Shown: one piece after another, positions 4,918 to 61,333 of the stretch
Position numbering within the stretch: position 1 is the first letter of the stretch
Layout: every line of letters starts with the position of its first letter
Source: Actinospica robiniae DSM 44927
GTDB taxonomy: Bacteria; Actinomycetota; Actinomycetes; Streptomycetales; Catenulisporaceae
DNA length: 64,000 bases
NCBI RefSeq assembly: GCF_000504285.1
Contig: NZ_KI632511.1
Coordinates: forward strand, 8,290,154 to 8,354,153
Reading direction: 5' to 3'
The notes under the pieces: generated by a model
What the model was told of the DNA's origin: nothing
The model's database searches: none
What the model saw: the letters and a program-made list of their open reading frames with translations, nothing else
Made by a program: the position numbers and the translations under genes

Positions 4918-7900
4918 GTGCAGGTGAGCACGGCTGTCTCGGGGGCGGAGGAGGAGCTGGTCATCCCGGCCGAGTGGATGCGGGTCCTGCATCCCCGGCG
5001 GGGCGGATCGCAGGCGTCGGCGATCGAGCTGCCCGCGCACACCGGCGCGACGGGACCACTCGAAGAGCTGCACGCGCAGGTGGCCGCGGCGTCCACGGAG
5101 TTGATCGAGAACTCCCGCACCGCTCCGGAGCTGACCGAGGCGTTCAAGGCTCAATTGGCCGGTAAGACGTCGCCGGCCGGAGCCGCGGCGGCTGCCCTGG
5201 CGGCCAAAACCATATCCGGCACCGATCTCCGGGCGCACCTCGATGCCTGGATCACGGCCCACGGCCTGCCGTTCGCGGTGGAGGCCACGCTCGCAGCCGG
5301 TCGGATCGAGCTGACCAGTCCCTACTACCGCTCGGAGCCACGGCTCGCCGTGTCGAGCTACGCCGGTCTGCGCGGCATGCAGCTCGAGCTGTTCCGGTGC
5401 CTGCGCGGGTACCTCGCGGCGGCGTCCGAGCCCGCGTACGCGCAGGCCGTCGAAGTGCTCGCAGCACATCGATCGGAGTTGCGTGACAGGGTCCTGGCGG
5501 CGTACCTCGCGCCGACCGAGGCGGCGTGGGTGGCGCAGGCCTGTGCCGAGGGCGGGAAGATCAGGACACAGGTAGAGCAATGGCGGCCGCTGGTCGTGCT
5601 TCTGCAGTGCTCGGTCGGCGGTGTCGAGGAATGGCAAGCCCTGCGCAAGCGCAAGGTGCTTCAGATGGGCCACGTCGACCTCGGCCTCCTGGCCACGCTC
5701 GCGATCTCGCTCGGCCCGGCGGCGGTGGAGCTCTTCCCACCCGTGCTGGACAACAGATGGGCGGACGCGGCCGTGCGCCGCGCCGCGCTCGACGTGCTGG
5801 CCCGGATACCGGGAGACGAAGCCTTCGCCGTCATGACGCAGCGGCTGACCATGAAGCACGTCTCGACCGCGGCCGCGCAGGCGGCCGAGCGCTTTCCGCG
5901 TCGCGCAACGCGCCTGCTGGCCGGGGCCGCGTGCGCCGCGGAGGCTGCCGAGAACGCGCTCCTCGCGCGCAACCTCCTCGTCGGCCACCTGGCCCGGCAC
6001 GCGGACCTCGTCCCGAGTGTCCGGCCCACGCTCACCGAGGCGGAGCGAGCGCTGGTGGACGAGCTGCGCGCGCTGGCCGCCGGCCGGCCCGCCGCACCCG
6101 TCGAGACGCTGCCCGAGCTACTCGTGAATCCGCCGTGGACGCGCAAGCGCCCGAGGCCCCGGCCGGCCCGCGGATCGGCGGCCGGGCCGGTCGAACCGGC
6201 GCCCGATGCGTTACAGGCCCCTGAGATCTGCCGGATCGACTGGCTGCCGGGCGAGCGCGAGACCTTCGACCACGGCAGGCCGAAGACCTTCGAGTCCGAC
6301 TGGGAGCCGATCCTCAAAGAGATCGAGGCCCGGGGCTTGACCCGCTGGGACCACGACGCGCGCGGCGCCCTGCTGCATGCACCTGAGGCAGAGGCACGCC
6401 GAGCACTGTCCTTCCTGCGCTCCGGTTTCGGACAGTCGGATCAGGTCTACGCGTTCGGCCCGCTGCTCGTGCGCTTCGGCACCGACGCGATCGAGCCGAT
6501 CCTCTACCAGGGCAGCGATCGAAGCCTGGTTCACCGCGGCGCGGTGCTGCAGCCGATCGTGGAGCTGCGGGTGGCCCGGCTGATGGCGCAGTGGTTGCAG
6601 CGGCTCGACGGCGGCCGTCCGCCGGCCCGGGCGTGGCTCGCCCGCCACGGTGCCGATGCCGCGGTCCTGCTCATCCCGGACGCGCTCGGCACCGACAAGC
6701 AGTTGCGTCCGCTCGCGGAGGACGCGCTGCGCTACCTCGCCGAGCCCAAGGTCGGCGTCGAGGTCGCGAGCATCGCCGAGCGCGAATACGGCGCGTCGGC
6801 GGCGGTAGAGGTCAAGTCCGTCGTCGAGGCGGACCCGCTCGAGCTCATCCCCGCTCGGGCACCGAAGCTCGCCGACTGGCTGAGCGAGGCCCACCTGCCG
6901 CAGATCCTGCTGCGCGGCCGGAAGGAGGCTCTGCCGGAGGAGTCCGTGCGGCATGTGCTGACCATGCTCATGCTCTCCAGGCCGGGCGAGCCGTATGCGG
7001 GCCTTGAGACGGTCGTCGAGCTGGCCGATCCGGTCTCGCTCTGCGGCTTCGGCCGTGCGCTGTTCGCCGCGTGGCGCGCGCGGGATTACGTGCCCAAAGA
7101 GTCCTGGATCCTCTACGCCCAAGGCTTTCTGGGTGACGCGTCGACCGTGCGCCACCTCGTCTCGCTGATCAGCGGCTGGCCGCGTGAGAACGGCAACCAC
7201 CGTGCGACGCTCGGGCTCGAAGTGCTCGACGACTTCGGCACCGATCAGGCGATGCTGCACCTCTACCGGATATCAAGGACCACGACCGGGCGGTCGCTAC
7301 GCGAGCGGGCCGGGGAGAAGGTGGGCCACCTCGCGGCGGCCCGCGGCATGACGCCCGCTCAGTTCGTCGACCGCCTGATCCCCGACCTGGGCCTTGATGC
7401 GCAGCAGGGCACTTGGCTCGATTACGGCCCGCGCCGGTTCCGGGTGGAGCTCGACGAACTCGGCGGCTACTCGCTCGCCGACGAACAGGGCGCGACGTAC
7501 GCGACGCTCCCGCAGCCGAAGCCCGGCCAGGACGACCCGGAACTCGCCGAGACCGCCCGAGAACGGCTCAGCAGCCTGATCGACGACGCCAAGCTGGTGC
7601 GCACCCACGCGGCCGAGCGGCTGGAGTCGGCGATGTCGATGAGCCGTGCCTTCAGCACGTCGGAGCTCCGTACCCTGCTCACGCACCCGCTGGTCGGAAC
7701 GATGGCACGCGGCCTGGTCTGGCTGAGCGAGGATTCCGGTCCCGGCACGGCGTTCCGCATAGCGGAGGACGGCGCCTTCGCAGACGTCGAGGACCGCACG
7801 TACGAGCTCCCACAGCAGGCCACCGTCCGCATCGCGCACGCGGCCCGGCTTGGCGCGGATCTCGGCGCGTGGGCCGAACTGTTCGCAGACTACGAAATCA

Positions 7901-8307
7901 TCCAACCCTTCCCGCAGCTCGGCCGGCCCGTCTACGGTCTGGTCGGCGCGGAGCGGACCGGAGCGCCGTTCACCCGATACCAGGAGGCGCTGGTCCTCGG
8001 TGAGAGGATGCGTGAACTGCTCGAACGCGGCTGGCAGCGAGAAAGGTCGTACGGATACGGTCCGCGGGAGTGCCTCTTGCGCCCCACGCCGGACGGCAGA
8101 TGGCTCGCGCTCGCACTCAAGCCGGACTTCCAGTACACCGCGGGCCCGGAGGCCCGGTCGCGCGTCGACTCCGTCAGCATCCTGGAAGCCCCGCACGTCG
8201 ACGGTTCCGGCCGGAGCCTGCCGCCGTCGCCCCTGCACGATCTCGACCCGATCACCGTCTCCGAACTCATCGGCGACCTGAACCGACTCGTCGATGGAGA
8301 ACCCTGA
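4918..8307 (+). CDS. DUF4132-containing protein, first gene of MoxR/VWA locus 1
   Basis: This 1129-residue cytoplasmic protein begins at a GTG preceded by a strong GGAGGGGGAG ribosome site. The N-terminal two thirds are alpha-helical with HEAT-like segments (for example around AAVRRAALDVLARIPGDEAF). The C-terminal 300 residues match DUF4132: LDYGPRRFRVELDE, ETARERLSSLIDDAKLVRTHAAERLE, LVGTMARGLVWLSE and YEIIQPFPQLGRPVYGL. DUF4132 proteins recur beside MoxR/VWA genes and have no assigned activity; a scaffold or target-recognition role is an inference. Its TGA overlaps the ATG of the AAA+ gene (TGATG), so translation is coupled. In the second locus of this window a shorter DUF5691 protein appears instead. 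Confidence 0.8.
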   Translation: MQVSTAVSGAEEELVIPAEWMRVLHPRRGGSQASAIELPAHTGATGPLEELHAQVAAASTELIENSRTAPELTEAFKAQLAGKTSPAGAAAAALAAKTISGTDLRAHLDAWITAHGLPFAVEATLAAGRIELTSPYYRSEPRLAVSSYAGLRGMQLELFRCLRGYLAAASEPAYAQAVEVLAAHRSELRDRVLAAYLAPTEAAWVAQACAEGGKIRTQVEQWRPLVVLLQCSVGGVEEWQALRKRKVLQMGHVDLGLLATLAISLGPAAVELFPPVLDNRWADAAVRRAALDVLARIPGDEAFAVMTQRLTMKHVSTAAAQAAERFPRRATRLLAGAACAAEAAENALLARNLLVGHLARHADLVPSVRPTLTEAERALVDELRALAAGRPAAPVETLPELLVNPPWTRKRPRPRPARGSAAGPVEPAPDALQAPEICRIDWLPGERETFDHGRPKTFESDWEPILKEIEARGLTRWDHDARGALLHAPEAEARRALSFLRSGFGQSDQVYAFGPLLVRFGTDAIEPILYQGSDRSLVHRGAVLQPIVELRVARLMAQWLQRLDGGRPPARAWLARHGADAAVLLIPDALGTDKQLRPLAEDALRYLAEPKVGVEVASIAEREYGASAAVEVKSVVEADPLELIPARAPKLADWLSEAHLPQILLRGRKEALPEESVRHVLTMLMLSRPGEPYAGLETVVELADPVSLCGFGRALFAAWRARDYVPKESWILYAQGFLGDASTVRHLVSLISGWPRENGNHRATLGLEVLDDFGTDQAMLHLYRISRTTTGRSLRERAGEKVGHLAAARGMTPAQFVDRLIPDLGLDAQQGTWLDYGPRRFRVELDELGGYSLADEQGATYATLPQPKPGQDDPELAETARERLSSLIDDAKLVRTHAAERLESAMSMSRAFSTSELRTLLTHPLVGTMARGLVWLSEDSGPGTAFRIAEDGAFADVEDRTYELPQQATVRIAHAARLGADLGAWAELFADYEIIQPFPQLGRPVYGLVGAERTGAPFTRYQEALVLGERMRELLERGWQRERSYGYGPRECLLRPTPDGRWLALALKPDFQYTAGPEARSRVDSVSILEAPHVDGSGRSLPPSPLHDLDPITVSELIGDLNRLVDGEP

Positions 8308-9455
8308 TGCGGAACGAACCCGCCGCGCCCGACGCCGGCGCACCCGACACCACCGCGCCCGCGGTGGCCGGCGCAGTCGGCGAGCTCCAGCGGCCGCCCG
8401 CGGAGATCCGCCACGCCGACGAGCTCGCCCGGCTCGCCGACAGCGACGGCGGCCACCGTCCCCCTGGCTGGCGGCTGAGCCTGCAAGCCGTGCGCGCCTT
8501 CGTGATCGGTGACGAGAGCCTCGGGATCAGCCGCAAGTTCGTCGGCGATCCGGCGCTGGTGGACCGCGCCCTGGTCAGCCTCGCCACCAGCAGAGGTCTG
8601 ATGCTCGTCGGTGAGCCGGGCACGGCCAAGTCCCTACTCAGCGAGCTGATCGCGGCGGCGGTCTGCGGCACCTCCACCCTCACCATCCAGGGCGGCGCGG
8701 CCACCACCGAGGACCAGATCAAGTACTCCTGGAACTACGCCCTGCTCGTCGCCGAAGGCCCGAGCGAGCGCGCCCTCGTGCCCGCGCCGCTGCTGCGCGG
8801 CATGGCCGAGGGGCTGATCGTGCGGTTCGAGGAGATCACCCGCTGCGCGCTCGAGGTGCAGGACACACTGCTCTCCCCGCTGTCCGAGCGCGCCCTGGTC
8901 GTGCCCGAGCTCGGTGCCGCCGGGACGGTGTTCGCCCGGGCGGGCTTCAACGTCATCGCCACGGCCAACTCCCGCGACCGCGGCGTCAACGAGATGAGCG
9001 CGGCGCTCAAGCGGCGCTTCAACTTCGAGACCGTCTTCCCCATCCCGGACTTCGAGACCGAGCTCGCGCTGGTCGAGCAGGAGGTCGAACGCCTGCTGCA
9101 GGCCTCGGGCGTCACCGCGCCGCCGCGCCTGGACGTGCTCGAGGTCCTGGTCGGGGCGTTCCGCGACCTGCGTACGGGCGTGACCGCCGACGGCACCCCG
9201 GTAGACCGGCCTTCGGCGATCATGAGCACGGCCGAGGCGGTCTCGGTGGCGCACGCGGTCGGCCTGCGCGGCTGGTTCCTGCGCGGCGAGTCCGGCGGCG
9301 TCGCCGACGTGGCCGCGTGCCTCGCCGGCACCGTGGCCAAGGACAGCGCCGACGACCTCAGCAGGCTGCGTCGCTACCTGGAGAAGCAGGCGAAGAGCCG
9401 CGGCGACGGCCTGTGGCGCGACCTGCACGAGGCCCGCCACCTGCTGCCGGGCTGA
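8307..9455 (+). CDS. MoxR-type AAA+ ATPase, locus 1
   Basis: This 382-residue AAA+ protein has Walker A GEPGTAKS (102-109), a Walker B region LIVRFEEI with E175/E176, sensor 1 Asn in ATANS (N221), and arginine-finger RR in ALKRRF (236-237). The stretch SWNYALLVAEGPSERALVP is nearly shared with the ATPase at 59013-60146, so the two are paralogues. MoxR ATPases work with VWA partners as chaperone- or chelatase-like remodelling machines. The start is the ATG overlapping the DUF4132 stop. An N-terminal 45-residue Ala/Pro-rich tail is probably disordered. The next gene begins 5 bases after its stop. Confidence 0.92.
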   Translation: MRNEPAAPDAGAPDTTAPAVAGAVGELQRPPAEIRHADELARLADSDGGHRPPGWRLSLQAVRAFVIGDESLGISRKFVGDPALVDRALVSLATSRGLMLVGEPGTAKSLLSELIAAAVCGTSTLTIQGGAATTEDQIKYSWNYALLVAEGPSERALVPAPLLRGMAEGLIVRFEEITRCALEVQDTLLSPLSERALVVPELGAAGTVFARAGFNVIATANSRDRGVNEMSAALKRRFNFETVFPIPDFETELALVEQEVERLLQASGVTAPPRLDVLEVLVGAFRDLRTGVTADGTPVDRPSAIMSTAEAVSVAHAVGLRGWFLRGESGGVADVAACLAGTVAKDSADDLSRLRRYLEKQAKSRGDGLWRDLHEARHLLPG

Positions 9456-9459
9456 GCCG

Positions 9460-11856
9460 ATGTCGATCACCTACATCGGAGTGCGCCACCACTCGCCCGC
9501 CTGCGCACGCCTGGTCGCGCGCACGATCGCGCGGCTGCGTCCGGCGTACGTGCTGGTCGAGGGCCCAGCCGACATGAACGAGCGGATCAGCGAGCTGTAT
9601 CTGCGCCACCGCCTGCCGATCGCGGTTTTCAGCAGCGGGCCGGGCTTCGCGTCGTACGCCCCGTTCTGCGCGTACTCGCCGGAATGGGCGGCGCTGACGG
9701 CGGCCCGCACGGCGAAGTCGGTGCCGCTGTTCATCGACCTGCCTGCCTGGCACCCGGCGTTCCGCGACCGCTCGAACCGCTACGCGGACGCCGAGCTGCA
9801 TTATGCGGCGGCGATGGAGCGGCTGTGCCGGGAGCTGCGCGCGTCGAGCGTCGACGAGCTCTGGGACCGGATGTTCGAGGTCGAGGACGGCGACGGCCTG
9901 GCCGAGCGGCTGACGGCGTACTTCGACCTGCTGCGCGGCGACCTGGACGCGAGCGAGGGCGACGCCGAGCGCGAGCGGTACATGGCGCGCTGGATCCGCG
10001 CGGCGGCGGCGCAGGCCGGCGACGCACCGGTGGTCGTCGTGACGGGCGGCTTCCACACCGCCGCGCTGCGGCGCCTCGTGGACCAGGGCGCTGATGTCGA
10101 GGGTGCGAGGCGCGAAGATGACAGGCCCGGCGCCCCGCGAGGGGACGGGGCTGGGACGGCAGCCGACAACGCGGCCTGGCCCGACGTGCCTTCGCCGGAG
10201 GACGGGGCGCGCGTGTCCAGCTACCTGGTGCCTTATTCCTTCCGGCGGCTAGATGCCTTTACCGGCTACCAGTCCGGCATGCCTTCGCCCGAGTACTACC
10301 AGCTGCTCTGGGAGCACGGGGCTCGGCGGGCGGCGGATGAGGTGGTCAAGGCCGTCGCGCAGCGGCTTCGGCAGCGGGGGTTGGCGGCTTCGACCGCGCA
10401 CCTCATCGCGGCGGGGGCTCAGGCTTCGGGGCTGGCTCGGCTGCGCGGGAGCCGGGTGCCGACGCGGGTCGACCTGCTCGACGGGCTGGTCAGCGCACTG
10501 GTCTCGGAGGACCTCGGGCAGCCGGTGCCTTGGGGGCGGGGCGGGGGACTGACGCCGGGGTCGCATCCGGTCGTGGTCGAGATGGTCGCGGCGATCAGCG
10601 GGGCGCGGGTGGGGCGCCTGCACGCGAAGACTCCGGCGCCGCCGCTCGTCCACGACGCTCTCGCGCAGCTCGAACGGCTCGGTCTCGACGACTGCTCCGG
10701 CGAACTCGAGCTCGACCTCTGCGACGCCACCGGGCTCGCGCGCAGCAGCGTTCTGCATCAGCTGCGGGTGCTCGGCGTGCCGGGGGCCGAGCGGGAGGCG
10801 GGGCCGGCGGACGGGCTTGATCCGGCTTCGCGGGAACGGTGGCGGATCGGGTGGGGGGAGCGGCGGCTGGTCGCGCTCATCGAGGCCGGGGCGCACGGGG
10901 CGACCTTGGCGCAGGCGGCGGCCTCGGCGCTCAAGGAGCGGGTCTCCGGGGTGGGCGGCGTCGACGTGCTGCCGCTGCTCTCCGGCACGCTCTTCGACAC
11001 CGTGCTGTGCGGCCTTCCGGCCGATGCCGATCAGATCCTGGCGCTGATCGCCGACGTGCTTGCTGACACCGCTTCAGCGGGCGGTGCTGATCTCGGGCCG
11101 CTCGGCTCGGTGCTTTCGGCATCGCTTGGGTTGTGGCGGCATGACCGGGTCTTCCGGATCGCGCGCAGTCCGAGCCTGACGCACGTCATCGCGGCCGCGG
11201 CCGAGCGCTTGCTGCGGCTCGCGCATGCGGTCACTGGGCCGGACACAGCGGCGGATCCGCATCGGTCGACGGCGCTAGCGGCGCTGCGCGACGCGGTTCG
11301 GCACGCGGAGCCGGTGCTGACGGTGGACCGGGCCGAGGTCACCGCCGCCGCAGCGCGGATCGCGAGTGATCAGCAGGCGCCGCCGGACCTGCGCGGCGCC
11401 GCACTGGGCCTCGGCTGGAGCCTCGGCGTCGGAGGTGGCGTCGTCGGCGTCGGCGGCGCAGTGGTGGCCGTGCCGCCGGGGATCGGGGTGCGGCGGATCG
11501 GGGACTGGCTGGCCGGGCTGTTCGCGCTCGCGCGCGAGGAGGCATCGAGCGCTGAGATGATCGGTCTGCTCGACGGCGTGGTGGGCGCCATGACCGAGGA
11601 CGAATTCCTCGGCGCCCTGCCCGCGCTGCGGATGGCCTTCGCCTACTTCCCGCCGCGGGAGAAGGAGGCCGTGGCGCGGAGCCTTCTCGACCGCCGCGGC
11701 CTGCGCGGGGACGCGCGCGGGCTGCTTCGGGTCTCCGTCTCGCCCGCGAACGGCATGGAGGCCAGGAGCCGGGAACGGACCGCCCTCGCCGAGCTGGTCG
11801 AGCACGGGCTGCTCTCAACGGAAGCGGAGCAGCTGGTGAAGGGCGTGCGGATATGA
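9460..11856 (+). CDS. DUF5682 family protein, locus 1
   Basis: This 798-residue cytoplasmic protein opens with YIGVRHHSPACARL and VLVEGPADM, matching DUF5682. A paralogue lies at 56623-59013. Conserved positions between the two are RHH...(A/S)CAR or SARA, an (V/I)EGP glutamate, an RExxM motif (R171-E172-M175 here) and GxxH (G196-H199). This set resembles the TraB/TIKI/ChaN/EreA fold, suggesting a metal-dependent hydrolase or esterase-like core in the first 250 residues; that is inference. The C-terminal 500 residues are helical and of unknown fold. Around residues 207-235 there is a low-complexity insert. Its last bases overlap the next gene (ATGA). Confidence 0.8.
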   Translation: MSITYIGVRHHSPACARLVARTIARLRPAYVLVEGPADMNERISELYLRHRLPIAVFSSGPGFASYAPFCAYSPEWAALTAARTAKSVPLFIDLPAWHPAFRDRSNRYADAELHYAAAMERLCRELRASSVDELWDRMFEVEDGDGLAERLTAYFDLLRGDLDASEGDAERERYMARWIRAAAAQAGDAPVVVVTGGFHTAALRRLVDQGADVEGARREDDRPGAPRGDGAGTAADNAAWPDVPSPEDGARVSSYLVPYSFRRLDAFTGYQSGMPSPEYYQLLWEHGARRAADEVVKAVAQRLRQRGLAASTAHLIAAGAQASGLARLRGSRVPTRVDLLDGLVSALVSEDLGQPVPWGRGGGLTPGSHPVVVEMVAAISGARVGRLHAKTPAPPLVHDALAQLERLGLDDCSGELELDLCDATGLARSSVLHQLRVLGVPGAEREAGPADGLDPASRERWRIGWGERRLVALIEAGAHGATLAQAAASALKERVSGVGGVDVLPLLSGTLFDTVLCGLPADADQILALIADVLADTASAGGADLGPLGSVLSASLGLWRHDRVFRIARSPSLTHVIAAAAERLLRLAHAVTGPDTAADPHRSTALAALRDAVRHAEPVLTVDRAEVTAAAARIASDQQAPPDLRGAALGLGWSLGVGGGVVGVGGAVVAVPPGIGVRRIGDWLAGLFALAREEASSAEMIGLLDGVVGAMTEDEFLGALPALRMAFAYFPPREKEAVARSLLDRRGLRGDARGLLRVSVSPANGMEARSRERTALAELVEHGLLSTEAEQLVKGVRI

Positions 11857-13055
11857 GTCGTGCGGACGTGCGTGCGGACATGGGCAAGGGCGCGGGCCGG
11901 ATCGACCCGGATCTGGAGCGGTGGCGGCTGATCCTGGGCGCGGCGGTACAGCAGACGCTGCCTATCGACGATGCCGCGAACGGTGTGGCATGCCGGCAGG
12001 ACGCCGCACTCGACTGGCTTTACGGCCGAGACGAGGACCTGCGGCGGCGCGGCATCCGCCCTTCGACGCCGGGCGGGGGTAGCGGCGAGGACCGGCGCGG
12101 GGGCAGCGAGGCTTCCGCGCTCACGGTGGTGGACTGGCTCGACGAGATCCACCAGCTCTTTCCGCGCGACACCGTCGAACGGCTCGAACGCGACGCGGTC
12201 GACCAGTACGGCATCGAGGAGATCCTCACCGATCCGGAGCTGCTGAGCCGGATCGAGCCGAGCGCCACGCTGCTGCGCGCCGTGCTGCGTACCAAGCATC
12301 TGATGAACCCGCAGGTGCTCGCCCTCGCCCGGCGGATCGTCGAGCGGGTCGTGCGCGATCTGATGGAGCGGCTGCAGCCGCAGCTGCGTGCGGCCTTCCA
12401 CGGCAGCCGGGTGGCCCGGCCCAGCCGGGTCAGGCTGGCGCGGGACTTCGACTTCCACGGCACCGTGCGCGCGAACCTGGCGCACTACCAGCCGGAGGAA
12501 CGCAGGCTCCTGATCGAGCAGCCGCGCTTCCATTCGCGGGCCCGGCGGCATCTCGAGACCTGGCAGCTGATCCTGCTCGTCGACCAGTCCGGGTCGATGG
12601 CCGCTTCGGTGATCCACAGCGCCGTCACCGCGGCCTGCCTGTGGAGCCTGCCCGGGCTCAAGACGCACCTGGTCGCGTTCGACACCAGCGTGGTCGATCT
12701 GACCGCGGACGTCGCGGACCCGGTCGAGCTGCTGATGAAGGCGCAGCTCGGCGGTGGGACGAACGTGGCCAAGGCGGTGGCTTACGCCGCGCAACTCGTG
12801 GAGAACCCTCGCCGCGCGATCGTGGCGGTGATCTCGGACTTCTACGAGGGCGGGGACAGCTCACGACTGGTGGGCGAGGTGCGGTCGCTGGTGCAGCAGG
12901 GCTCCGTCGTGCTCGGGCTGGCCGCGCTCGACGAGGAGGCGCTGCCGGCCTACGACCGGGCCATGGCGCAGCGGCTGGCGAACGTGGGAGCGCATGTGGG
13001 GGCGATGACGCCGGGGCAGTTGGCGGAGTTCGTGGCGGAGAGGCTGGGGCGATGA
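11853..13055 (+). CDS. VWA-domain protein (MoxR partner), locus 1
   Basis: The N-terminal half of this 400-residue protein is helical, with FPRDTVERLERDAVDQYGIEEI. The C-terminal half is a von Willebrand A domain with a complete MIDAS start, LLVDQSGSMAAS (DxSGS at 244-248), a second loop Thr in QLGGGTNVAKAVAYA, and an Asp in VISDFYEGGD. These features match the VWA protein at 55460-56623. VWA subunits of MoxR pairs bind a divalent metal and dock client proteins. No signal peptide or TM helix is seen, so it acts in the cytoplasm. It overlaps the upstream gene by ATGA, and its own stop overlaps the SWIM gene start. Confidence 0.9.
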   Translation: MSRADVRADMGKGAGRIDPDLERWRLILGAAVQQTLPIDDAANGVACRQDAALDWLYGRDEDLRRRGIRPSTPGGGSGEDRRGGSEASALTVVDWLDEIHQLFPRDTVERLERDAVDQYGIEEILTDPELLSRIEPSATLLRAVLRTKHLMNPQVLALARRIVERVVRDLMERLQPQLRAAFHGSRVARPSRVRLARDFDFHGTVRANLAHYQPEERRLLIEQPRFHSRARRHLETWQLILLVDQSGSMAASVIHSAVTAACLWSLPGLKTHLVAFDTSVVDLTADVADPVELLMKAQLGGGTNVAKAVAYAAQLVENPRRAIVAVISDFYEGGDSSRLVGEVRSLVQQGSVVLGLAALDEEALPAYDRAMAQRLANVGAHVGAMTPGQLAEFVAERLGR

Positions 13056-15085
13056 GCGGCGAGGCCGGCTCGGCGGCGACGGTCCGCGGCGATCTGCTGG
13101 CGCTGAACGAGGACGCGTTGACCGCCCTCGGTAACAGAGGCCTGGTCAAGCGTGCGGTCAAGGAGCTCGCCGGCGGCCTCGGCGCCTCCATCGGCGTCTC
13201 GGCTGACGGCGCGGTGGAGGCCTCGTATCCCGACGGGGTCACCACCGTCCTTCCGGCCGCGGCGGCGCTCGCCGAGGCGGCGTGCAGCTGTGCCGCTCCC
13301 GGGCTCTGCCGACACCGTGTCGGGCTCGTGCTGGCCTACCAAGAGTGGCACGGTGGTTCGGGCCCGAGCGAGAAGGGCACGGCAGAGTCGCAGGGCACGT
13401 TGTCGTCGCCGGCAGACATCGACGACGTGACGCTCGGGCGTGTCCTCGGCGCGCGGTCTTTGGAGACCGCGCGCCGACAGTTGGCCAAGGGGTTCGACGT
13501 GGTCGTACACAGGGCCGTCGGCGCGTCGCCCGCCCGGGTCGAGCTTCCCACCTGCACGGTCACCTTCCTCGTGCCGGACGATCCTTCGTATGCGACGACG
13601 GATGCCGCGCAGGCGCATCGGGCCGAGGCGGTCGTGCTCGCGGTTTGGGGCTACCGGGCTTCGATCGAGGCGCACGGCGACGCCGAGGCGGTGCCCGCCG
13701 CCGGCGGTGTGCGGGTACATCTCGGTGCTTCGGCCACCGAGACGGCCGAGATCGACCTCAGTGCGCTCGCAGCGGCCGCCGAAGTCGTCGACACTCTTCT
13801 GCTCGACGGCACCGCGAACGCGGGCCCGTTGTTGCGTGGGAACGTCCGGCATCTGGCGAGGGAACTGGATGCGGCTTCGATGCTGTGGCCTGCGGCGGTG
13901 CTGGAGGACCTGGCCGATCAGGCCGACTGGTACGCCGAACGCAGCGCACGGCACGAGATGCGTCGCACCGCGGACCTCATCAGTGAGTTTCACGCGCGCC
14001 ACCGTGCGGCCGCGCGGACGCCGGCGTCCGCGCGCGCCATCCTCGGCACGGCCGAGCCGCGCAGCACGCCGCTCAAGCGCGTCCGGCTGGTCGGGCTCGG
14101 CTGCCGGATAGCCGGGGGAGCGGGTTTCCGCACGGCCGAGCTGTTCTTCGCGCATCCGCTCGACGGCACAGTGCTCGTGCTGCGCCGGACCTGGCCGGTG
14201 GACGAGGAGAAGGCGCCGACGATCGCGCAGCTGCGCAGCCGTCGTGTCGCGGGTTCGACGCTGCACCACCTCGCCGCCGCCAACCTCGTCTCCGAGGTGG
14301 CCAGCCGCAGCGCCAGCCGGGTCATCGACCTCAACTCGCAGAGTATTGCGAAGACGGCCGTGATGCCGGTCGGCAACGCGTGGCGGGCGCTGCCGGAATC
14401 GCTGGTCATCCGCGATTTCAATGCCCTGCTCGCCAGGCTGGCCCGGCGCGGCCCGCGTCTGCTGTGCCCGCGCGTGGCCGCGGAGGACGTGTTCGTGCTC
14501 GCGGTGCGCAACGTTGAAGGGCTCAGATACGACCCGGCGGAGCAGCGTCTCGAGGCCTTCGTCGTGGACGAGCACGGCACGGAGGCGACCATCGCCGCGG
14601 ACTACAGCGCCTACAGCGAGCATGCGCTGAACGCGGTGGGGCAAGCGCTGTCCGGGGGTGAGGTGAGCTGCCTGGTCAGCGGGACGGTGACGGTCCAGTC
14701 GGGCCGTATCCATCTCAGGCCCCTGGCGATCTGGCGAGGCGCGGACACGCCGCTCGTGGTGCCGGATCTGGCGGAGACGGGTGGGCGCGGCCGGGTGCCG
14801 GGCGGGGTCGCGCGGACCCGGGGGAAACGTCCGCTCGCGGCGGCTCTCGACTTGCTCGACGACGCGGCCGATCTGCTCGTCGAGCACGCGCATCGCGGCG
14901 TCGGCATGCTCGCGCACGCGGCCGCCGACCGCGTGCACCGGCTCGCGCACGACCTCGGTCGGCACGGTTTGAGCGCGGTCTCCGCGCTCCTCGACGTTTA
15001 CGCGGCCACCCTCGTCACCGAGGACCGCCCGGCACGCGCCCGCGCCTGGGTCGACTGCCTTCTCGCGGTCGAGTCCTGCCGATGA
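13052..15085 (+). CDS. SWIM zinc-finger protein, locus 1
   Basis: This 677-residue protein carries a SWIM zinc finger near the N-terminus (CSCAAPGLCRH: C78, C80, C86, H88). SWIM fingers bind nucleic acid or protein and occur with MoxR/VWA modules and SNF2 helicases. The rest has no motif I recognise; it is alternating alpha/beta with many charged loops. Length is greater than the SWIM protein of locus 2 (486 residues), and apart from the finger the two show no obvious alignment by eye. The start is the ATG that overlaps the VWA stop. It is the last gene of the locus, and a long inverted-repeat element begins 45 bases after its stop. Confidence 0.85.
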   Translation: MSGEAGSAATVRGDLLALNEDALTALGNRGLVKRAVKELAGGLGASIGVSADGAVEASYPDGVTTVLPAAAALAEAACSCAAPGLCRHRVGLVLAYQEWHGGSGPSEKGTAESQGTLSSPADIDDVTLGRVLGARSLETARRQLAKGFDVVVHRAVGASPARVELPTCTVTFLVPDDPSYATTDAAQAHRAEAVVLAVWGYRASIEAHGDAEAVPAAGGVRVHLGASATETAEIDLSALAAAAEVVDTLLLDGTANAGPLLRGNVRHLARELDAASMLWPAAVLEDLADQADWYAERSARHEMRRTADLISEFHARHRAAARTPASARAILGTAEPRSTPLKRVRLVGLGCRIAGGAGFRTAELFFAHPLDGTVLVLRRTWPVDEEKAPTIAQLRSRRVAGSTLHHLAAANLVSEVASRSASRVIDLNSQSIAKTAVMPVGNAWRALPESLVIRDFNALLARLARRGPRLLCPRVAAEDVFVLAVRNVEGLRYDPAEQRLEAFVVDEHGTEATIAADYSAYSEHALNAVGQALSGGEVSCLVSGTVTVQSGRIHLRPLAIWRGADTPLVVPDLAETGGRGRVPGGVARTRGKRPLAAALDLLDDAADLLVEHAHRGVGMLAHAAADRVHRLAHDLGRHGLSAVSALLDVYAATLVTEDRPARARAWVDCLLAVESCR

Positions 15086-55459: not shown

Positions 55460-56623
55460 TCAGACCTCCTCGCCGGCGAACTGGCTCAGGTCGCGGCGCT
55501 CGATCGCCGCCGCCATCAGCGGGCCGAAGCGGTCCGGCGTGCAGGCGAAGGCGGGCACGCCGAGGGCGGCCAGCGCCGCGGCGTTCTGCCGGTCGTAGGA
55601 CGGGGCGCCCTCGTCCGACAGCGCGAGCAGCACGATCACCTGGACTCCGGCCGCGGTCATCTGCGCGACCCGGCGCAGCATCTCGGCCCGCACGCCGCCC
55701 TCGTAGAGGTCTGAGATCAGCACGAAGATGGAGTCCGTCGGGCGGGTGATCAGCGACTGCGAGTAGGCGATCGCCCGGTTGATGTCCGTGCCGCCGCCGA
55801 GCTGGGTGCCGAAGAGCACGTCCACCGGGTCGGCCAGCTCCGGGGTCAGGTCCACGACCTCGGTGTCGAAGACCACCAGCGAGGTCTTCAGCGCCCGCAT
55901 CGACGCGAGCACCGCGCCGAACAGCGAGGCGTACACCACCGAGGCGGCCATCGAGCCGGACTGGTCGATCGCCAGCACCACGTCGCGCTTGACCGCGCGG
56001 GCCGCGCGCGCGTACCCGATCAGCCGCTCCGGCACCACGCTGCGATACTCGGGCTGGTAGTTCTTCAGGTTCGCCCGGATGGTCCGGTTCCAGTCGATGT
56101 CCCGGGGCCGCGGCCGGTTCGTGCGCGCCGCCCGGTTCAGCGCCCCGGACACCGCGGCCCGGAACCCCTGCGCCAGCTGCGCCTCGAGCTCGTCCACGAC
56201 CTTGCGTACGACCGTGCGCGCGGTCTCCTTCGTCTCCTCCGGCATCAGCTTGTTGAGCGAGAGCAGGGTGCCGACGAGGTGCACGTCCGCCTCGACCGAC
56301 TCCAGCAGCTCCGGCTCCAGCAGCAGCTGCTTGAGGTTGAGCCGCTCGATCGCGTCCTGCTGCATCAGCTGGACCACGGTGGTGGGGAAGAACTCGCGGA
56401 TGTCGCCGAGCCAGCGCGCGACCGTCGGCGCGGAGGAACCCAGGCCGGCGCTGCGGCCGAGCCGCCCGCCGCCCGCGCCCGGACCGCCCCCGTAGAGCCC
56501 GGCCAGCGCGGCGTCCATCCGCGTGTCGTCTCCGCCGAGGCCGCCGCAGCAGCCCTCGGCTTCGCTGCCGAGCGCCAGCCGCCAGCGCCGCAGCCGCTCG
56601 CTCGTCTCCAAGGCCGCCGTCAT
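55460..56623 (-). CDS. VWA-domain protein (MoxR partner), locus 2
   Basis: The 387-residue protein has a helical N-terminal half and a C-terminal VWA domain with MIDAS DQSGSMAAS (DxSGS at 220-224), GGGTDINRAIAYS and LISDLYEGG. It parallels the VWA gene of locus 1 in length and motifs (NYQPE before the VWA domain, QLGGGT in the loop). It starts with an ATG overlapping the DUF5682 stop (TGATG). It is the last gene of locus 2. Expected role: docking client proteins to the MoxR ATPase. Confidence 0.9.
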   Translation of the reverse strand: MTAALETSERLRRWRLALGSEAEGCCGGLGGDDTRMDAALAGLYGGGPGAGGGRLGRSAGLGSSAPTVARWLGDIREFFPTTVVQLMQQDAIERLNLKQLLLEPELLESVEADVHLVGTLLSLNKLMPEETKETARTVVRKVVDELEAQLAQGFRAAVSGALNRAARTNRPRPRDIDWNRTIRANLKNYQPEYRSVVPERLIGYARAARAVKRDVVLAIDQSGSMAASVVYASLFGAVLASMRALKTSLVVFDTEVVDLTPELADPVDVLFGTQLGGGTDINRAIAYSQSLITRPTDSIFVLISDLYEGGVRAEMLRRVAQMTAAGVQVIVLLALSDEGAPSYDRQNAAALAALGVPAFACTPDRFGPLMAAAIERRDLSQFAGEEV

Positions 56624-59013
56624 CAGACCAGCTCCCGTTCTCTCGCCGTACCGGTCAACAGCAGCGCGATCGTGGACACGGCCTCCGCCCGGGCGGCGAG
56701 CAGCCACTCCGGCGCATCGGCGTCCACGGCCGCGGCGCCTTCCGCCGCCTCGCCATCGGCCGACCCCGACGCGAGGTCGGGCAGCTGTTCGGCGATGGCC
56801 CGGCGCTCCGGCCCGGCGAAGGTGCCGAAGGTTCGGCGCAGCAGCGGCAGGACGGTCTCGAAGCGCTCGCCGTCCAGGTCGCAGATCCAGGCGTCGATGA
56901 GCCGCAGCATCGTCTTGTCGTGCGCGAGCAGCAGCCCGCTGCCGGCCAGGAAGCCCTCCAGCCAGGCCGCGGCCCGAGCCGGCTCGGTACCCTGGGCCAG
57001 CGCCCGGGCCATCCGCTCGGCGACCGCGTCGGTGTCGAAGATGCCGCTGTCGCTCAGCAGCCGCACCGCGCGCCCGGCGGTGACCCCGTGCGCGGCCTCC
57101 GAGTCGGCCACCCTGGTCAGCGCCTCGGTCCAGGGCGTGCCCACCTCGGGATCCTCGAGCAGCTGGATCGCGCCGTTGGCCTCGGACATCCGGACGGCCA
57201 GGCTCATCGCCGGCTTGTCGTCGATGCCGACGCAGGCGCCGAGCAGTCCGATGGCCAGCCGCACGCCGAGCCCGCGCACCACCGTCGTGAGCGACTCCAC
57301 CCGGGTGCCGCGCACGTCCCGGTACCGCAGGACGTTGACGAGCGGCGGCAGGGCGCCGGCCAGCTCGGCGATGTCGGTGTCCACGGCGGCCCGGTTCTGC
57401 ACCGCGTCCACCATCGGCCCGACCGCGTCCGGCAGGTCCGCGGCGAGACAGCGCTCGACGAAGCCGGTGAGCTCGGCGAGCGAGGTCTCCTTGGCCGCCC
57501 GCTCCAGCATCCGCGCGGTGGCTGCGCTCGGGATCGTCGTCCCCCACACGCTCGCCTCGACCAGCTTGACCTCGAGCGCCGGCTCCCACACCAGCCGCCA
57601 GGACTCGCGGAAGGTGCCGGTGGACTTGGACTTGCCGGGCTCGCCCCACGGCACGTCGAGCAGCGCGAGCCGGCGCAGCAGCTTCGAGCGGTCGAGGTCG
57701 TTCGGGGTGCGCAGGTCGAGGTCGTAGGCCTTCTCGGCGGCGGCCCGCGGCAGTCGCAGCCGCTTGGACTCGCGGGCCAGATCGGCGGCCAGCGGCACCA
57801 TCGGGGTCTCGGGCGCCACCGCGCCGAGCACGTCGCCGACGATGAGCTCGCGCTCGATCAGCGAGAGCAGCTCGGGCGAGCCTTCGCAGAGCACCGCGAC
57901 GGTCGCCTCGGTCAGCTCGGCCAGGCCCGGGCGAGGGCGGCCGCGCAGGCCGCCGAGCGTCTCGGCCAGCCGCACGCCCTCGATCAGGTGCGCGCTGGAG
58001 ACCGGGACGCGCTCCTTTCGCAGCAGCTCGGCGACCCGGGTGAGCCAGCGTTCGGCGATGTGGTCGTCGTGCGCGAACAGGTGCCCGTACCAGCCGGGGG
58101 ACTGGATGCCGGCGCCGTAGCCGGAGTGGTAGGAGAGCCGGCTGTGCGTCCACGGCACCCAGGTGAGCGCGGTCGCCGTGGCCTTCGAGGCCTTGGGCAA
58201 CGCGGCCAGCGCGGCTTTGTCCTGCGTGGCCGTCGGCAGGCCGCTCGCCTTGCCGCGCTCGATTCCGAGCAGCGCCGGCACGTGGTACGCACCGCAGACC
58301 ACTGCGATGCGTCGCGCGCCGCCGGCCAGCGCCGCGCGCACGGCGGTGCGCATGTGCGCCTCACGCACGGCGTCGAACGCGCTGGTCTCCTCGTGCGCGC
58401 GGACCTCGCCCATCGCCTCGGCGACGGCGGCGAAGGCGTCGAGCGCGTCGGTGGCGTGCATCCGGTGCTCGACGACGTCCTCCCACCAGGTCTCGCCGTC
58501 CTCGTAGCCGGCGGCCTCGGCCAGCTGGCCGATCGGGTCCCGGCGACGCGGCGGCGCAGACTCGTCCGGCGTGGGCTCCTCCGGCGCGGCGGGCTCGGCG
58601 CCTTCTTCGGGCTCTGCCTGCTCGCCGGGCTCGGCGGACTCGTCCGTCGGCCCGTCGCCGCCGCGGTCCATGCCGAGGCTGGCGGCCGCGGGCAGGTCGC
58701 AGAACCCTGCCGGCACGTCTTGGGCCAGCGCGTACCGCAGCGCGGCCCACTCCGGGGAGAACTCGGCGAACGGCCAGAACGCGGAGAGCTGCGGGTCCGC
58801 CTCGCGGTAGGCGAACAACGCGACCGGCGGCTCCATCTCGGCCGCGCCGATCAGAGGGATCAGCGCGCCCGCGTCCGACGGCCCCTCGATCAGCACCCGG
58901 TCGGGCGCGTACTCGGCCAGCGCGGCGGCGACCGCGCGGGCCGAGCCGGGCCCGTGGTGGCGGATCCCGAGGACCGCCACGCTCGGGCCGGCGTCGGTGT
59001 GCGTGCTCGTCAT
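56623..59013 (-). CDS. DUF5682 family protein, locus 2
   Basis: The 796-residue protein is the paralogue of the gene at 9460-11856. It has IRHHGPGSARA (from R18), LIEGPSD with E43, REAHM (R217-M221) and CGAYH (H244), the same order and spacing of motifs as in locus 1. These fit a TraB/ChaN/EreA-like core. An acidic Glu/Pro-rich insert lies at about 120-155. The C-terminal 500 residues are helical and unknown. The start is the ATG overlapping the AAA+ stop. Confidence 0.82.
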   Translation of the reverse strand: MTSTHTDAGPSVAVLGIRHHGPGSARAVAAALAEYAPDRVLIEGPSDAGALIPLIGAAEMEPPVALFAYREADPQLSAFWPFAEFSPEWAALRYALAQDVPAGFCDLPAAASLGMDRGGDGPTDESAEPGEQAEPEEGAEPAAPEEPTPDESAPPRRRDPIGQLAEAAGYEDGETWWEDVVEHRMHATDALDAFAAVAEAMGEVRAHEETSAFDAVREAHMRTAVRAALAGGARRIAVVCGAYHVPALLGIERGKASGLPTATQDKAALAALPKASKATATALTWVPWTHSRLSYHSGYGAGIQSPGWYGHLFAHDDHIAERWLTRVAELLRKERVPVSSAHLIEGVRLAETLGGLRGRPRPGLAELTEATVAVLCEGSPELLSLIERELIVGDVLGAVAPETPMVPLAADLARESKRLRLPRAAAEKAYDLDLRTPNDLDRSKLLRRLALLDVPWGEPGKSKSTGTFRESWRLVWEPALEVKLVEASVWGTTIPSAATARMLERAAKETSLAELTGFVERCLAADLPDAVGPMVDAVQNRAAVDTDIAELAGALPPLVNVLRYRDVRGTRVESLTTVVRGLGVRLAIGLLGACVGIDDKPAMSLAVRMSEANGAIQLLEDPEVGTPWTEALTRVADSEAAHGVTAGRAVRLLSDSGIFDTDAVAERMARALAQGTEPARAAAWLEGFLAGSGLLLAHDKTMLRLIDAWICDLDGERFETVLPLLRRTFGTFAGPERRAIAEQLPDLASGSADGEAAEGAAAVDADAPEWLLAARAEAVSTIALLLTGTARERELV

Positions 59014-60146
59014 CAGGCGGACAGCTCCCGGCAGGCCTCGTAGAAGCCCTTCCACCCGTCGCGCGGCTTGACGACCGTCTCCAGGTACTCCCGCCACACC
59101 ACCGGGTCCGCCGACGGGTCCTTGATCACCGCGCCGATCAGGCCCGCGGCCACGTCCTCCGGCCGCAGCGTGCCGTCGCCGAAGTGCGCGGACAGCGCGA
59201 TCCCGCCGGTGACCACGGAGATCGCCTCCGCCGGGGAGAGCGTGCCGGAGGGCGACTTGACCTTGGTGCGCCCGTCCTCGGTGCGCCCGGAGCGCAGCTC
59301 GCGGAAGACCGTGACGACCCGTCGGATCTCCTCCGCCGCGGCCGGAACCGGGGGCAGCTCGAGCGAGCGGCCGAGCGACTCGACCCGCTGCGCGACGATG
59401 CGCACCTCGTCCTCGGCCGTGGCCGGCAGCGGAAGCACGACGGTGTTGAACCGGCGGCGCAGCGCGGAGGACAGGTCGTTGACACCGCGGTCGCGGTCGT
59501 TGGCGGTGGCGATGACCGTGAAGCCCTTGGCCGCCTGCACCTCGTCGCCGAGCTCGGGTATCGGCAGGGTCTTCTCGGACAGGATGGTGATCAGGGTGTC
59601 CTGCACGTCCGCGGGGATGCGGGTGAGCTCCTCGACCCGGGCGACCTTGCCGTTCGCCATGGCGGTCATCATCGGCGAGGGCACCAGGGCCTGCCGGGAC
59701 GGGCCCTCGGCCAGCAGCCGGGCGTAGTTCCAGCCGTAGCGCATCGCCTCCTCGGAGGTGCCCGCGGTGCCCTGCACCAGCAGCGTCGAATCGCCGCTGA
59801 CCGCCGCGGCGAGGTGCTCGGAGACCCAGCTCTTGGCGGTGCCGGGCACGCCGAGCAGCAGCAGCGCGCGGTCGGTGGCCAGGGTGGCCACGGCCACCTC
59901 GACCAGCCGGCGCGGGCCGATGTACTTGGGCGTGATCGCGGTGCCGTCGGCGGCCGTGCCGCCGAGCAGGTAGGTCGTCACGGCCTGCGGGGAGAGGTTC
60001 CAGCGCGGCGGGCGCGGGCGGTCGTCGCCCTTGGCGAGGGCGTCGAGCTCGCCGGCGAAGGCGTCCTCGGCGTGCGGGCGCAGGGCGTCCTCGGCGGGCG
60101 TCGGATTCGCGGTGGCGGTGCTGGTCGGCGTCATGGCGTTGGTCAT
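59013..60146 (-). CDS. MoxR-type AAA+ ATPase, locus 2
   Basis: The 377-residue ATPase has Walker A GVPGTAKS (99-106), a Walker B region ending in VEEL (E172/E173), sensor 1 in IATAND (N216), and arginine residues in ALRRRF. GWNYARLLAEGPSRQALVP closely follows the corresponding segment in the ATPase of locus 1. It starts at an ATG that overlaps the DUF5691 stop by four bases (ATGA). It is the energy-supplying subunit of the locus. Confidence 0.92.
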   Translation of the reverse strand: MTNAMTPTSTATANPTPAEDALRPHAEDAFAGELDALAKGDDRPRPPRWNLSPQAVTTYLLGGTAADGTAITPKYIGPRRLVEVAVATLATDRALLLLGVPGTAKSWVSEHLAAAVSGDSTLLVQGTAGTSEEAMRYGWNYARLLAEGPSRQALVPSPMMTAMANGKVARVEELTRIPADVQDTLITILSEKTLPIPELGDEVQAAKGFTVIATANDRDRGVNDLSSALRRRFNTVVLPLPATAEDEVRIVAQRVESLGRSLELPPVPAAAEEIRRVVTVFRELRSGRTEDGRTKVKSPSGTLSPAEAISVVTGGIALSAHFGDGTLRPEDVAAGLIGAVIKDPSADPVVWREYLETVVKPRDGWKGFYEACRELSA

Positions 60147-61333
60147 TCCTGTCCGGGGGCGTCGGCGGGTGCGGTCAGTTCGGCGTGCATGTCGGCGCGG
60201 AAGCCGAGCGGGCTGAGCAGTTCGTGGAAGTCGAGGTGGTGGACCCGGCCGGCCGCGATCTCAGCGGCCTGAGCCTGGCTCACGCGCTCCGCCTCGGGGT
60301 GCAGCTCCAGCGGCGCGCAGTCGGCGAGCATGCCCATGAGGTGGCCGGCGGCCCAGTCGCTGCCGCGGGCGCGCTTCTCGGCCGCCGCGCCGGCGGCGGT
60401 GGTGTCGCGTTCGCGGCTGTGCTCGAGCAGGACGGCGAGGATCACCCGCGCGGCGTCGAGCGGCCAGGGGCGGTGCGCCTGCGGCGCGGCGTAGCGGTAG
60501 ATGTCGTGGGTCGGGACCTCGGCCGTGGCCATCCGGGTGATCTCGGCGGTGAACGCCTCGGCAGGTCGCGACTCGGCCCGCTGATCGCGGCCCTTGAGTT
60601 GCGCCTCGATCGCGTGGGCTTCTTCGCGCACCTGCTTGGAGGGATCCTTGGCCAGGCCTTCGACGAACGGGAGGTCCGCGTCGGTGCGGTGGCGGCCGAG
60701 CACGCTGAGCAGGCTCAGCTTCACGGTGGCGGTCAGCGTCGGCCAGGCAGCGGTGAAAAGGGCGCGGGCGGCTTCCGGGTCGGCGGCGTACAGGCCGTTC
60801 GCGTAGGCGGTCCTCGCGTCCGGGTCGGGCCCGTCCCAGTCCTCCGGACGCAGCGGTCCGACAGATTCCCGGCGCAGGTAGCGCCAATCCGCGTTCTGCC
60901 CGGCGAGCCACTGCCCGCGCGGACCGAGCACGTGGGCCAGCGCGGGACGCATGGCCGTGTTGGTCCGGCCGACGTCGAGCAGGGCCGGCATCGTCGCCGA
61001 GGGCAGCCGCAGGCCCGCGGCCTGCACCGCGGCGAGCCATTCGCCGAGGTACTTCGGGTACGCGTCGAGCAGGGAGCGCAGCCGCAGCTGGACCAGCGGA
61101 GATATCAGGGGCCTGCCGTCGGCGGGGGCCGGCTCGGGCAGCGCGCCCTCGTGGCGGGCGGGCGGGGCGCCGGTGAGCGCGGGGACGGTCAGCACCATGG
61201 CCTGCCGCAGCAGCTCCTGTGCCGGGTCGCCGGCCTCCGGGCCGGCCGCCCCGGGCACGAACGGACGGCGGTCGGTGCCGACCAGCGCGGCCGAGAGCAC
61301 CTCCGACCACGACGAACTCGGGTACTGACTCAC
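60143..61333 (-). CDS. DUF5691 family protein, locus 2
   Basis: The 396-residue protein begins at GTG with SSWSEVLSAALVGTDRRPF, characteristic of DUF5691. A HEAT-like segment, AAWPTLTATVKLSLLSVLGRHRTDADLPFVEGLAKDPSKQVREEAHAIEAQLKG, recalls the helical repeats of the DUF4132 protein in locus 1. It occupies a place in locus 2 that DUF4132 fills in locus 1. The GTG overlaps the SWIM stop, and its own stop overlaps the ATPase start. The function is unknown; a scaffold role is an inference. Confidence 0.8.
   Translation of the reverse strand: MSQYPSSSWSEVLSAALVGTDRRPFVPGAAGPEAGDPAQELLRQAMVLTVPALTGAPPARHEGALPEPAPADGRPLISPLVQLRLRSLLDAYPKYLGEWLAAVQAAGLRLPSATMPALLDVGRTNTAMRPALAHVLGPRGQWLAGQNADWRYLRRESVGPLRPEDWDGPDPDARTAYANGLYAADPEAARALFTAAWPTLTATVKLSLLSVLGRHRTDADLPFVEGLAKDPSKQVREEAHAIEAQLKGRDQRAESRPAEAFTAEITRMATAEVPTHDIYRYAAPQAHRPWPLDAARVILAVLLEHSRERDTTAAGAAAEKRARGSDWAAGHLMGMLADCAPLELHPEAERVSQAQAAEIAAGRVHHLDFHELLSPLGFRADMHAELTAPADAPGQE

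Follow-up and report, generated by a model that had tools for sequence, protein, structure and literature searches.

DUF5682 (PF18934) is a protein family that Pfam still labels as one of unknown function. Two of its genes lie in a 64,000-nucleotide stretch of contig NZ_KI632511.1 from Actinospica robiniae DSM 44927 (the window), each in an operon that also encodes a MoxR-type ATPase and a von Willebrand factor A (vWA) protein. We propose, with a probability of about 0.68, that DUF5682 is a two-part subunit of such MoxR-vWA operons of the YehL subfamily and a hydrolase served by the MoxR-vWA pair. Its N-terminal domain (N-domain, residues ~1-260) almost certainly belongs to the Tiki/TraB/ChaN/EreA superfamily by fold and family, because profile matches, a Pfam scan and AlphaFold models, which are largely independent, agree in this placement for residues ~1-220. 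The family, the predicted fold, the motif register, the invariance of the motifs and the operon were established by computation. An initial annotation of the window had suggested a TraB/ChaN/EreA-like catalytic core. The fold, the family and the four core residues hold up and the closeness to EreA does not, while the term catalytic is drawn from conserved residues.

Sequence profiles place the DUF5682 N-domain nearest to TraB and ChaN

Both predicted open reading frames translate as DUF5682 proteins, as had been claimed (Table 1). The strand of the second gene had not been given; it lies on the minus strand, and reading the plus strand at these positions does not yield it. Both proteins exceed the PF18934 gathering score of 26 bits (copy 1, E = 4.9e-96, 323.2 bits; copy 2, E = 4.9e-253, 842.2 bits). 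They share 27% identity over the main aligned stretch and 41% in the first 100 residues.

To describe the family we used the best 80 of 568 confirmed DUF5682 loci from a genome scan. Alignment A2 (65 sequences) holds 63 of these loci and the two window proteins. The 17 loci left out were near-duplicates, fragments or frame-broken (L034, L036, L046, L049, L051, L053-L056, L064, L070, L072, L076, L083, L087, L089 and L111). The N-domain set A3 (56 rows) holds 54 of the 63 loci and the two window proteins. The comparison families were represented by sequences from genome hits (TraB, n = 26; ChaN, n = 8; EreA, n = 12), from which partial, contig-end and sub-threshold hits were left out.

The 56-row N-domain profile matched the TraB profile over 196 columns (12 of the 26 TraB sequences; probability 81.5, E = 1.1e-5) and the ChaN profile over 179 columns (probability 61.8, E = 7.6e-5). 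Both matches span the domain, with all four motif points in register. In a controlled run, ChaN scored 36.3 (probability 51), TraB 32.4 (probability 29) and EreA 20.8 (probability 0.9). Seven decoys (histidine phosphatase, SDR, MoxR, vWA, SWIM protein, DUF4132 and the DUF5682 C-terminal part) scored at most 24.0. None of 200 column-permuted profiles reached the score of ChaN or TraB (maxima 23.8 and 19.5), while the EreA score lay below its permuted maximum of 25.3. As a yardstick, scores were 46-52 for TraB-ChaN and, among pairs whose relationship is accepted, 31-34 for ChaN-EreA and 17-22 for TraB-EreA. Thus, of the three families named in the initial annotation, TraB and ChaN stand above decoys and null and EreA falls within the null. 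EreA was therefore rejected as the closest relative; judged by these profiles, the N-domain is closest to TraB and ChaN.

A scan of the 56 N-domains against 24736 Pfam models with hmmscan listed 51 families. DUF5682 was found in 56 members, and the next two families by member count were ChaN (17 members, best E = 0.0019) and TraB (4 members, best E = 1.5e-5). None of the other families displayed matched more than two members; NESP55, which had a low E-value (4.1e-6), we read as a low-complexity type of match. Used alone, the Pfam TraB model struck the DUF5682 protein of locus L091 (identical to L153; E = 2.3e-4, 23 bits). This same protein has RD in place of RE in its arginine motif. PDB sequence searches with copy 1 (P0001), the 18-sequence set A1 described below, A3 and E. 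coli YehM gave nothing, or what we read as chance matches, namely designed repeats, phosphoglycerate mutase and stathmin.

Predicted structures of both copies resemble members of the superfamily

The full-length AlphaFold model of copy 1, built with the 65-row alignment, reached a predicted local distance difference test score (pLDDT) of 89.9 and a predicted template modelling score (pTM) of 0.88. It shows an alpha/beta domain followed mostly by helices, with strands at 3-8, 30-36, 54-60, 63-69, 88-93, 191-196 and 253-258. A parallel beta-sheet flanked by helices is the core given for the superfamily in PMC6254334. Structural re-alignment (VIA) ranked 7w5z_E first (Z 9.6, 182 residues, 4.8 Å, model residues 1-213) and EreC (6xcq) 44th amid helical-repeat rows (Z 6.6, 169 residues, 4.9 Å). 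For residues 432-757, the whole-model search returned mainly helical repeats such as importins and retromer. Because the helical C-terminal half dominated this search, an N-domain was folded alone.

The isolated N-domain of copy 2 had pLDDT 86.9 and pTM 0.85. VIA ranks 1-9 were all superfamily members (Z 6.4-10.0): 8b6h_DQ (10.0), 8bqs_DQ (9.9), 7w5z_E (9.8), ChaN 2g5g (8.0, 157 residues, 5.1 Å), HopBA1 5t09 (8.0, 144 residues, 4.5 Å), EreC 6xcq (7.2, 170 residues) and 6xcs (6.9), and BcR135 2rad (6.5) and 3b55 (6.4). The next row, a methyltransferase, had Z 5.5. The absence of PMT and RRSP from this list carries no weight. Passages of PMC6254334 and PMC7979712 name ChaN, HopBA1, BcR135 and EreC as a single fold group. 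According to a figure legend of the 8B6H paper, one accessory subunit of ciliate complex IV is of the TraB family, and chain DQ is presumably that subunit. A PDB sequence search with the TraB profile did not support the Tetrahymena chain as TraB, an identity that we take from the paper's statement. The Tetrahymena complex IV subunit and BcR135, both of the superfamily, made up the first five Foldseek matches of the copy 2 N-domain in PDB. Among viral structures (BFVD), the sole match with E<=1e-3 was a 'TraB family protein' (E = 5.3e-4). These data indicate that, as the initial annotation had anticipated, the models of both copies match the superfamily to which EreA and ChaN belong.

Some of the results count against this placement. 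Z scores of 8-10 are only moderate, and taken alone would be only suggestive; their weight appears to lie in one small superfamily filling the top ranks. The hhalign probabilities range from 29 to 82%, with none above 90. The EreA match lies within its null, and the TraB match of L091 falls under the PF01963 gathering score of 26.8 bits. Foldseek gave no match with E<=1e-3 in PDB for the copy 1 model or the copy 2 N-domain. Moderate Z scores and Foldseek E-values above 1e-3 would also be expected if the domain had a generic alpha/beta fold with chance motifs. We consider this very improbable, since two sequence methods, one of them unbiased over 24736 Pfam models, and structure pick the same small group, and the motifs are in register.

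A different enzyme class is suggested by the RH after strand 1, which we take to resemble the RHG motif of histidine phosphatases, with the GxxH histidine as its partner. Members of that class do appear in the structural list (5w5g_A, Z 4.1; phosphoglycerate mutase 3r7a_B, Z 3.6). The PF00300 profile, however, scored 14.4, within the null, and Z is about 4 compared to 8-10 for the Tiki group. We therefore rejected this candidate, whose likelihood is next to negligible.

A His-Glu-Arg-His set is invariant in DUF5682 and in register with the superfamily

Eleven residues are identical in 65/65 A2 sequences (copy 1 numbering): R9, H10, H11, E34, E75, D93, E140, R171, M175, G196 and H199. E172 is kept in 64/65. 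We also examined 120 segments found with the N-domain profile over loci L001-L112 and L173, some of which duplicate one gene. H10, H11, E34, E75, D93, R171, M175, G196 and H199 were each kept in 113/113 segments covering the column, and R9 in 111/113. The scan patterns G[VI]RHH[GS]P and SPE supplied 63 of the 65 A2 sequences; because they contain RHH and E75, the constancy of these two is partly selected and is not independent evidence. E34, D93, R171, M175, G196 and H199 lie outside the patterns, so their constancy is unselected. The same invariants are seen in set A1 (n = 18), which joins the two window proteins with 16 obtained via the Pfam model or protein search. By our own assignment from record titles, the 80 scan loci belong to Actinomycetota, Pseudomonadota, Myxococcota, Acidobacteriota, Cyanobacteriota, Planctomycetota, Verrucomicrobiota, Bacteroidota, Deinococcota and Chloroflexota.

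The initial annotation had reported an RHH near residue 18 in both copies. This is correct for copy 2 (residues 18-20), while in copy 1 the motif is at residues 9-11. The EGP glutamate (E34 in copy 1, E43 in copy 2), the RExxM arginine (R171, R217) and the GxxH histidine (H199, H244) are present in both copies as described, and the invariant D93 had been overlooked. E75 and D93 of copy 1 correspond to E88 and D106 of copy 2. It was further argued that four motifs in two paralogues are hard to get by chance. This argument carries little weight, since common descent already gives paralogues shared motifs. The motifs are no two-sequence coincidence for other reasons: they are invariant across the family and matched in outside families.

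H10 corresponds to EreC H50, to the histidine of ChaN GExH and to that of TraB GTxH, and is in register in the ChaN and TraB profile alignments. E34, at the end of the second strand, is in register with EreC E78, ChaN LEM and TraB EL. R171 corresponds to the TraB arginine (26/26) and the EreA arginine (11/12); in ChaN this position is R, K or W, and an invariant D comes next. M175 matches the EreA and ChaN methionine, and H199 the histidine of GxxH (TraB 26/26, ChaN 8/8, EreA 12/12). The spacing from R171 to H199 is 28 residues, equal to that of EreC R261-H289. We equate these two pairs because of the EreA profile alignment and this equal spacing. EreC R261 and RRSP R4001 are given as the conserved basic residue of the superfamily in parts of PMC7979712 and PMC6254334. 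From the sequence alignments, D93 is probably the counterpart of the acid in TraB GLE(T) (E 22, D 3 of 26) and EreA GLD (D 11/12); the sub-alignment for the TraB register is weak (probability 3) and ends just before D93. In the predicted model, the motif residues are at or just after strand ends, with R171 in the helix preceding the last strand, and on this basis may lie close in space.

One superfamily residue is missing. The glutamate that stands two or three residues ahead of the first histidine in GExxH/GExH is absent in all 65 sequences, where the counterpart of EreC E47 and RRSP E3900 is replaced. Position 8, its place, is V in 42 and I in 23 of 65, where TraB has T in 22 and S in 4 of 26; the absence of this glutamate counts against the hydrolase role proposed below. 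Position 7 is G in 50, P in 14 and A in 1 (n = 65), giving a first motif of (G/P/A)-(V/I)-R-H. Neither the GExH of ChaN (8/8) nor the G-(T/S)-x-H of TraB is found in DUF5682. Because the GExxH glutamate is Val/Ile, we regard DUF5682 as a new TraB-like family and not as EreA.

A further subfamily (L031, L032) has CHH in place of RHH and keeps all remaining motifs. Its glutamate motif, LELCED, looks even more TraB-like, and L031 adjoins a MoxR-type AAA_5 gene.

Comparison with characterized members of the superfamily

DUF5682 shares with TraB/PrgY/GumN (PF01963; Tiki group) two GxxH motifs, a glutamate ending the second strand, an invariant arginine in R-(N/D/E), an acid after a later strand (TraB GLE, DUF5682 IDL) and the 196-column profile match. 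It differs in having V/I for T/S in the first GxxH, the extra residues R9, H11 and E75 and a helical C-terminal half, and no gathering-level Pfam match to TraB was seen. With ChaN (PF04187, 'Haem-binding uptake, Tiki superfamily') it shares the full-domain profile match, the structural match to 2g5g, and a G..H, Glu, YxP element, DxxMA and GxxH in register. The GExH glutamate is absent, and the invariant Y85 and N103 of ChaN are replaced by a varying aromatic and an invariant Asp.

The likeness to EreA/EreC and BcR135 (PF05139) consists of the structural match to EreC and the aligned R-(D/E)-x-x-M and second histidine; unlike these esterases, DUF5682 has no counterpart of E47 and no sequence match above the null. 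RRSP, a 2His/2Glu Tiki endopeptidase, was compared by the description in part of PMC6254334: His, Glu, Arg and His have counterparts in DUF5682, whereas the first Glu of the 2His/2Glu set does not.

DUF5682 genes lie between MoxR and vWA genes in nearly all loci

Operon 1 (4918-15085) has the order DUF4132, MoxR, DUF5682, vWA (CoxE type) and SWIM-like, and operon 2 (55460-62790) the order SWIM, DUF5691, MoxR, DUF5682 and vWA. Among the 80 loci, matches were found to MoxR in 74, vWA in 74, SWIM in 61, DUF4132 in 53 and DUF5691 in 14. MoxR is directly upstream of DUF5682 in 73/75 loci with at least 1400 upstream bases, and vWA is directly downstream in 68/76 loci with at least 1200 downstream bases. 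Some of the vWA misses stem from truncated contigs or from the distance limits applied; a vWA match is in fact present in L049 and L052. The two window operons are two layouts of one core in the same genome; DUF4132 and DUF5691 matches occur together in only 1/80 loci.

Three of the 80 loci (L081, L091, L100) have no MoxR, vWA or SWIM match in the available flanks, which speaks against a general partnership; some DUF5682 copies may therefore work alone. The neighbours of L081 and L091 are unrelated genes (cytochrome b, thiolase, AhpC/TSA).

E. coli K-12 yehI-yehK-yehL-yehM-yehP-yehQ has the gene set and order of operon 1, and YehM has all motifs (L173:10696-12975). Operon 2 departs from the yeh layout: it has DUF5691 and its SWIM gene lies upstream, whereas in the yeh operon DUF4132 is upstream and SWIM downstream. 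In a passage of PMC3893208, seven MoxR subfamilies are named, YehL among them. The MoxR-vWA ternary conflict systems (Kaur et al. 2020, PMC7159879) likewise have a MoxR and vWA core with a third component, whereas 'TIKI', 'YehL' and 'SWIM' are absent from the main text of that paper.

A proposed hydrolase served by MoxR and vWA

In EreC, according to passages of PMC7979712, H50, E78 and H289 hold water, the arginine stabilises the transition state and E47 tunes a histidine. DUF5682 keeps the counterparts of the three water-holding residues and of the transition-state arginine, and lacks the His-tuning glutamate. We infer catalysis, amide or ester chemistry and client handling by the MoxR-vWA pair. 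The predicted Tiki-type alpha/beta domain of residues ~1-260 carries the complete His-Glu-Arg-His set (H10, E34, R171, H199) together with the invariant D93 and a second histidine, H11; residues ~470-798 are predicted to be a helical-repeat scaffold. H10, E34 and H199 would hold and activate water and R171 would steady the transition state, both as proposed for EreC, and D93, E75 or H11 may replace the absent GExxH glutamate. Selecting and remodelling a protein client would fall to the MoxR ATPase and the vWA protein, allowing the DUF5682 site to cut or modify it. By analogy, DUF5682 is most likely a water-activating hydrolase, peptidase or esterase-like, and probably a peptidase. It is possible, although we hold it with considerable doubt, that YehL-type MoxR, vWA (YehP) and DUF5682 (YehM) act together as an ATP-driven machine that remodels and cuts, with a Tiki-type proteolytic site. 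Such a machine would be an AAA+ protease of a kind unrelated to Clp, Lon, FtsH and the proteasome; E. coli K-12 would have it, as would members of about ten phyla.

Superfamily members without established hydrolase activity argue in the other direction: parts of PMC6254334 and PMC7979712 describe ChaN as binding haem and PMT as lacking the 2His/2Glu set. The domain might thus belong to the right superfamily and be no hydrolase, with its invariant residues holding a ligand or the fold as a structural scaffold. By sequence, ChaN ranks among the two nearest relatives, the top structural matches come from a respiratory complex with a TraB-family accessory subunit (ciliate complex IV), and one superfamily glutamate is missing. 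Yet the His, Glu, Arg and His, along with two acids and the second His, show no variation in 65/65 sequences from about ten phyla, which exceeds the needs of a fold, and no degenerate copies were seen in 113 segments. We consider this ligand or scaffold role unlikely.

Still less likely, in our judgement, is a metal- or cofactor-insertion machine, in which MoxR-vWA matures cofactor enzymes and the DUF5682 His/Glu/Asp cluster holds metal or haem. Both window operons encode a VWA_CoxE partner, DUF5682 is related to ChaN, and its invariant set is rich in His, Glu and Asp. MoxR proteins are described with chaperone-like roles in complex maturation in part of PMC3893208, and yehM is listed among genes mutated in copper-evolved E. 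coli in part of PMC12409786. However, the copper mutation is one of many, and the flanks of the core genes, tested for five families, yielded no gene for a cofactor enzyme.

If DUF5682 is the hydrolase that we propose, YehM, annotated as uncharacterised in E. coli, has a probable active site with named residues, and its function becomes a simple mutagenesis question that is directly testable. Going by sequence and models, the YehL-subfamily MoxR machines of about ten phyla would gain a likely enzymatic subunit, and the Tiki superfamily a cytosolic, AAA+-linked branch. To our knowledge, its other members are mostly membrane, secreted, resistance or toxin proteins. We found no paper mentioning DUF5682 in a literature search that most subscription journals lay beyond, and none in titles and abstract openings that joins MoxR to Tiki/TraB/Ere on this subject.

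Features of the window and further observations

Coordinates are collected in Table 1. PADLOC gave no match to DUF5682, and no relatives were found in viral contigs. Three Pfam models found no TraB, EreA or ChaN proteins in this genome.

Table 1. Genes, domains and motifs of the two DUF5682 operons in the window.
Feature	Position	Strand	Basis
DUF4132 protein (YehI homologue), operon 1; start uncertain	4918..8307	+	domain search
MoxR-type AAA+ ATPase (AAA_5), operon 1; start uncertain	8070..9455	+	domain search
DUF5682 protein copy 1 (P0001, 798 aa; YehM type)	9460..11856	+	translation, PF18934 match
Copy 1 TraB/ChaN-like alpha/beta domain, residues 1-260 (predicted)	9460..10239	+	AlphaFold model, structure search, profile comparison
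Copy 1 R9-H10-H11; H10, putative first catalytic His	9484..9492	+	alignment
Copy 1 E34 (EGP)	9559..9561	+	alignment
Copy 1 E75 of SPE motif, family-specific invariant acid	9682..9684	+	alignment; partly selected by scan pattern
Copy 1 D93 of (F)IDLP, strand end	9736..9738	+	probable counterpart of TraB GLE(T), EreA GLD, ChaN N
Copy 1 R171-E-x-x-M175	9970..9984	+	matches EreA RDxxM, TraB RN/RD, ChaN DxxMA
Copy 1 G196-x-x-H199	10045..10056	+	matches second His (EreC H289; TraB/ChaN GxxH)
Copy 1 C-terminal helical part, residues 470-798, HEAT/ARM-like arrangement (predicted)	10867..11853	+	predicted model
vWA protein (VWA_CoxE), operon 1	11853..13055	+	4-base overlap with DUF5682 stop
SWIM-like CxC...CxH protein, YehQ homologue, operon 1	13052..15085	+	no Pfam match
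vWA protein (VWA_CoxE), operon 2	55460..56623	-	start inferred at DUF5682 stop
DUF5682 protein copy 2 (P0003, 796 aa)	56623..59013	-	translation, PF18934 match
Copy 2 G241-x-x-H244	58282..58293	-	translation, alignment
Copy 2 R217-E-x-x-M221	58351..58365	-	translation, alignment
Copy 2 E43	58885..58887	-	translation, alignment
Copy 2 R18-H19-H20	58954..58962	-	translation, alignment
MoxR-type AAA+ ATPase, operon 2	59013..60146	-	domain search
DUF5691 protein, operon 2; start uncertain	60143..61636	-	domain search
SWIM zinc-finger protein, operon 2	61330..62790	-	domain search

An open reading frame just after operon 1 (16277-17536) resembles a transposase, as read from its translation. Outside the window, the genome has a third DUF5682 copy (G000:C1:2050312-2052534; locus L003:1345-5040). 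Read from its translation, it is a single polypeptide with a C-terminal vWA-like domain, a natural fusion linking both partners. Just upstream is a 396-amino-acid open reading frame whose translation reads as a MoxR-like ATPase.

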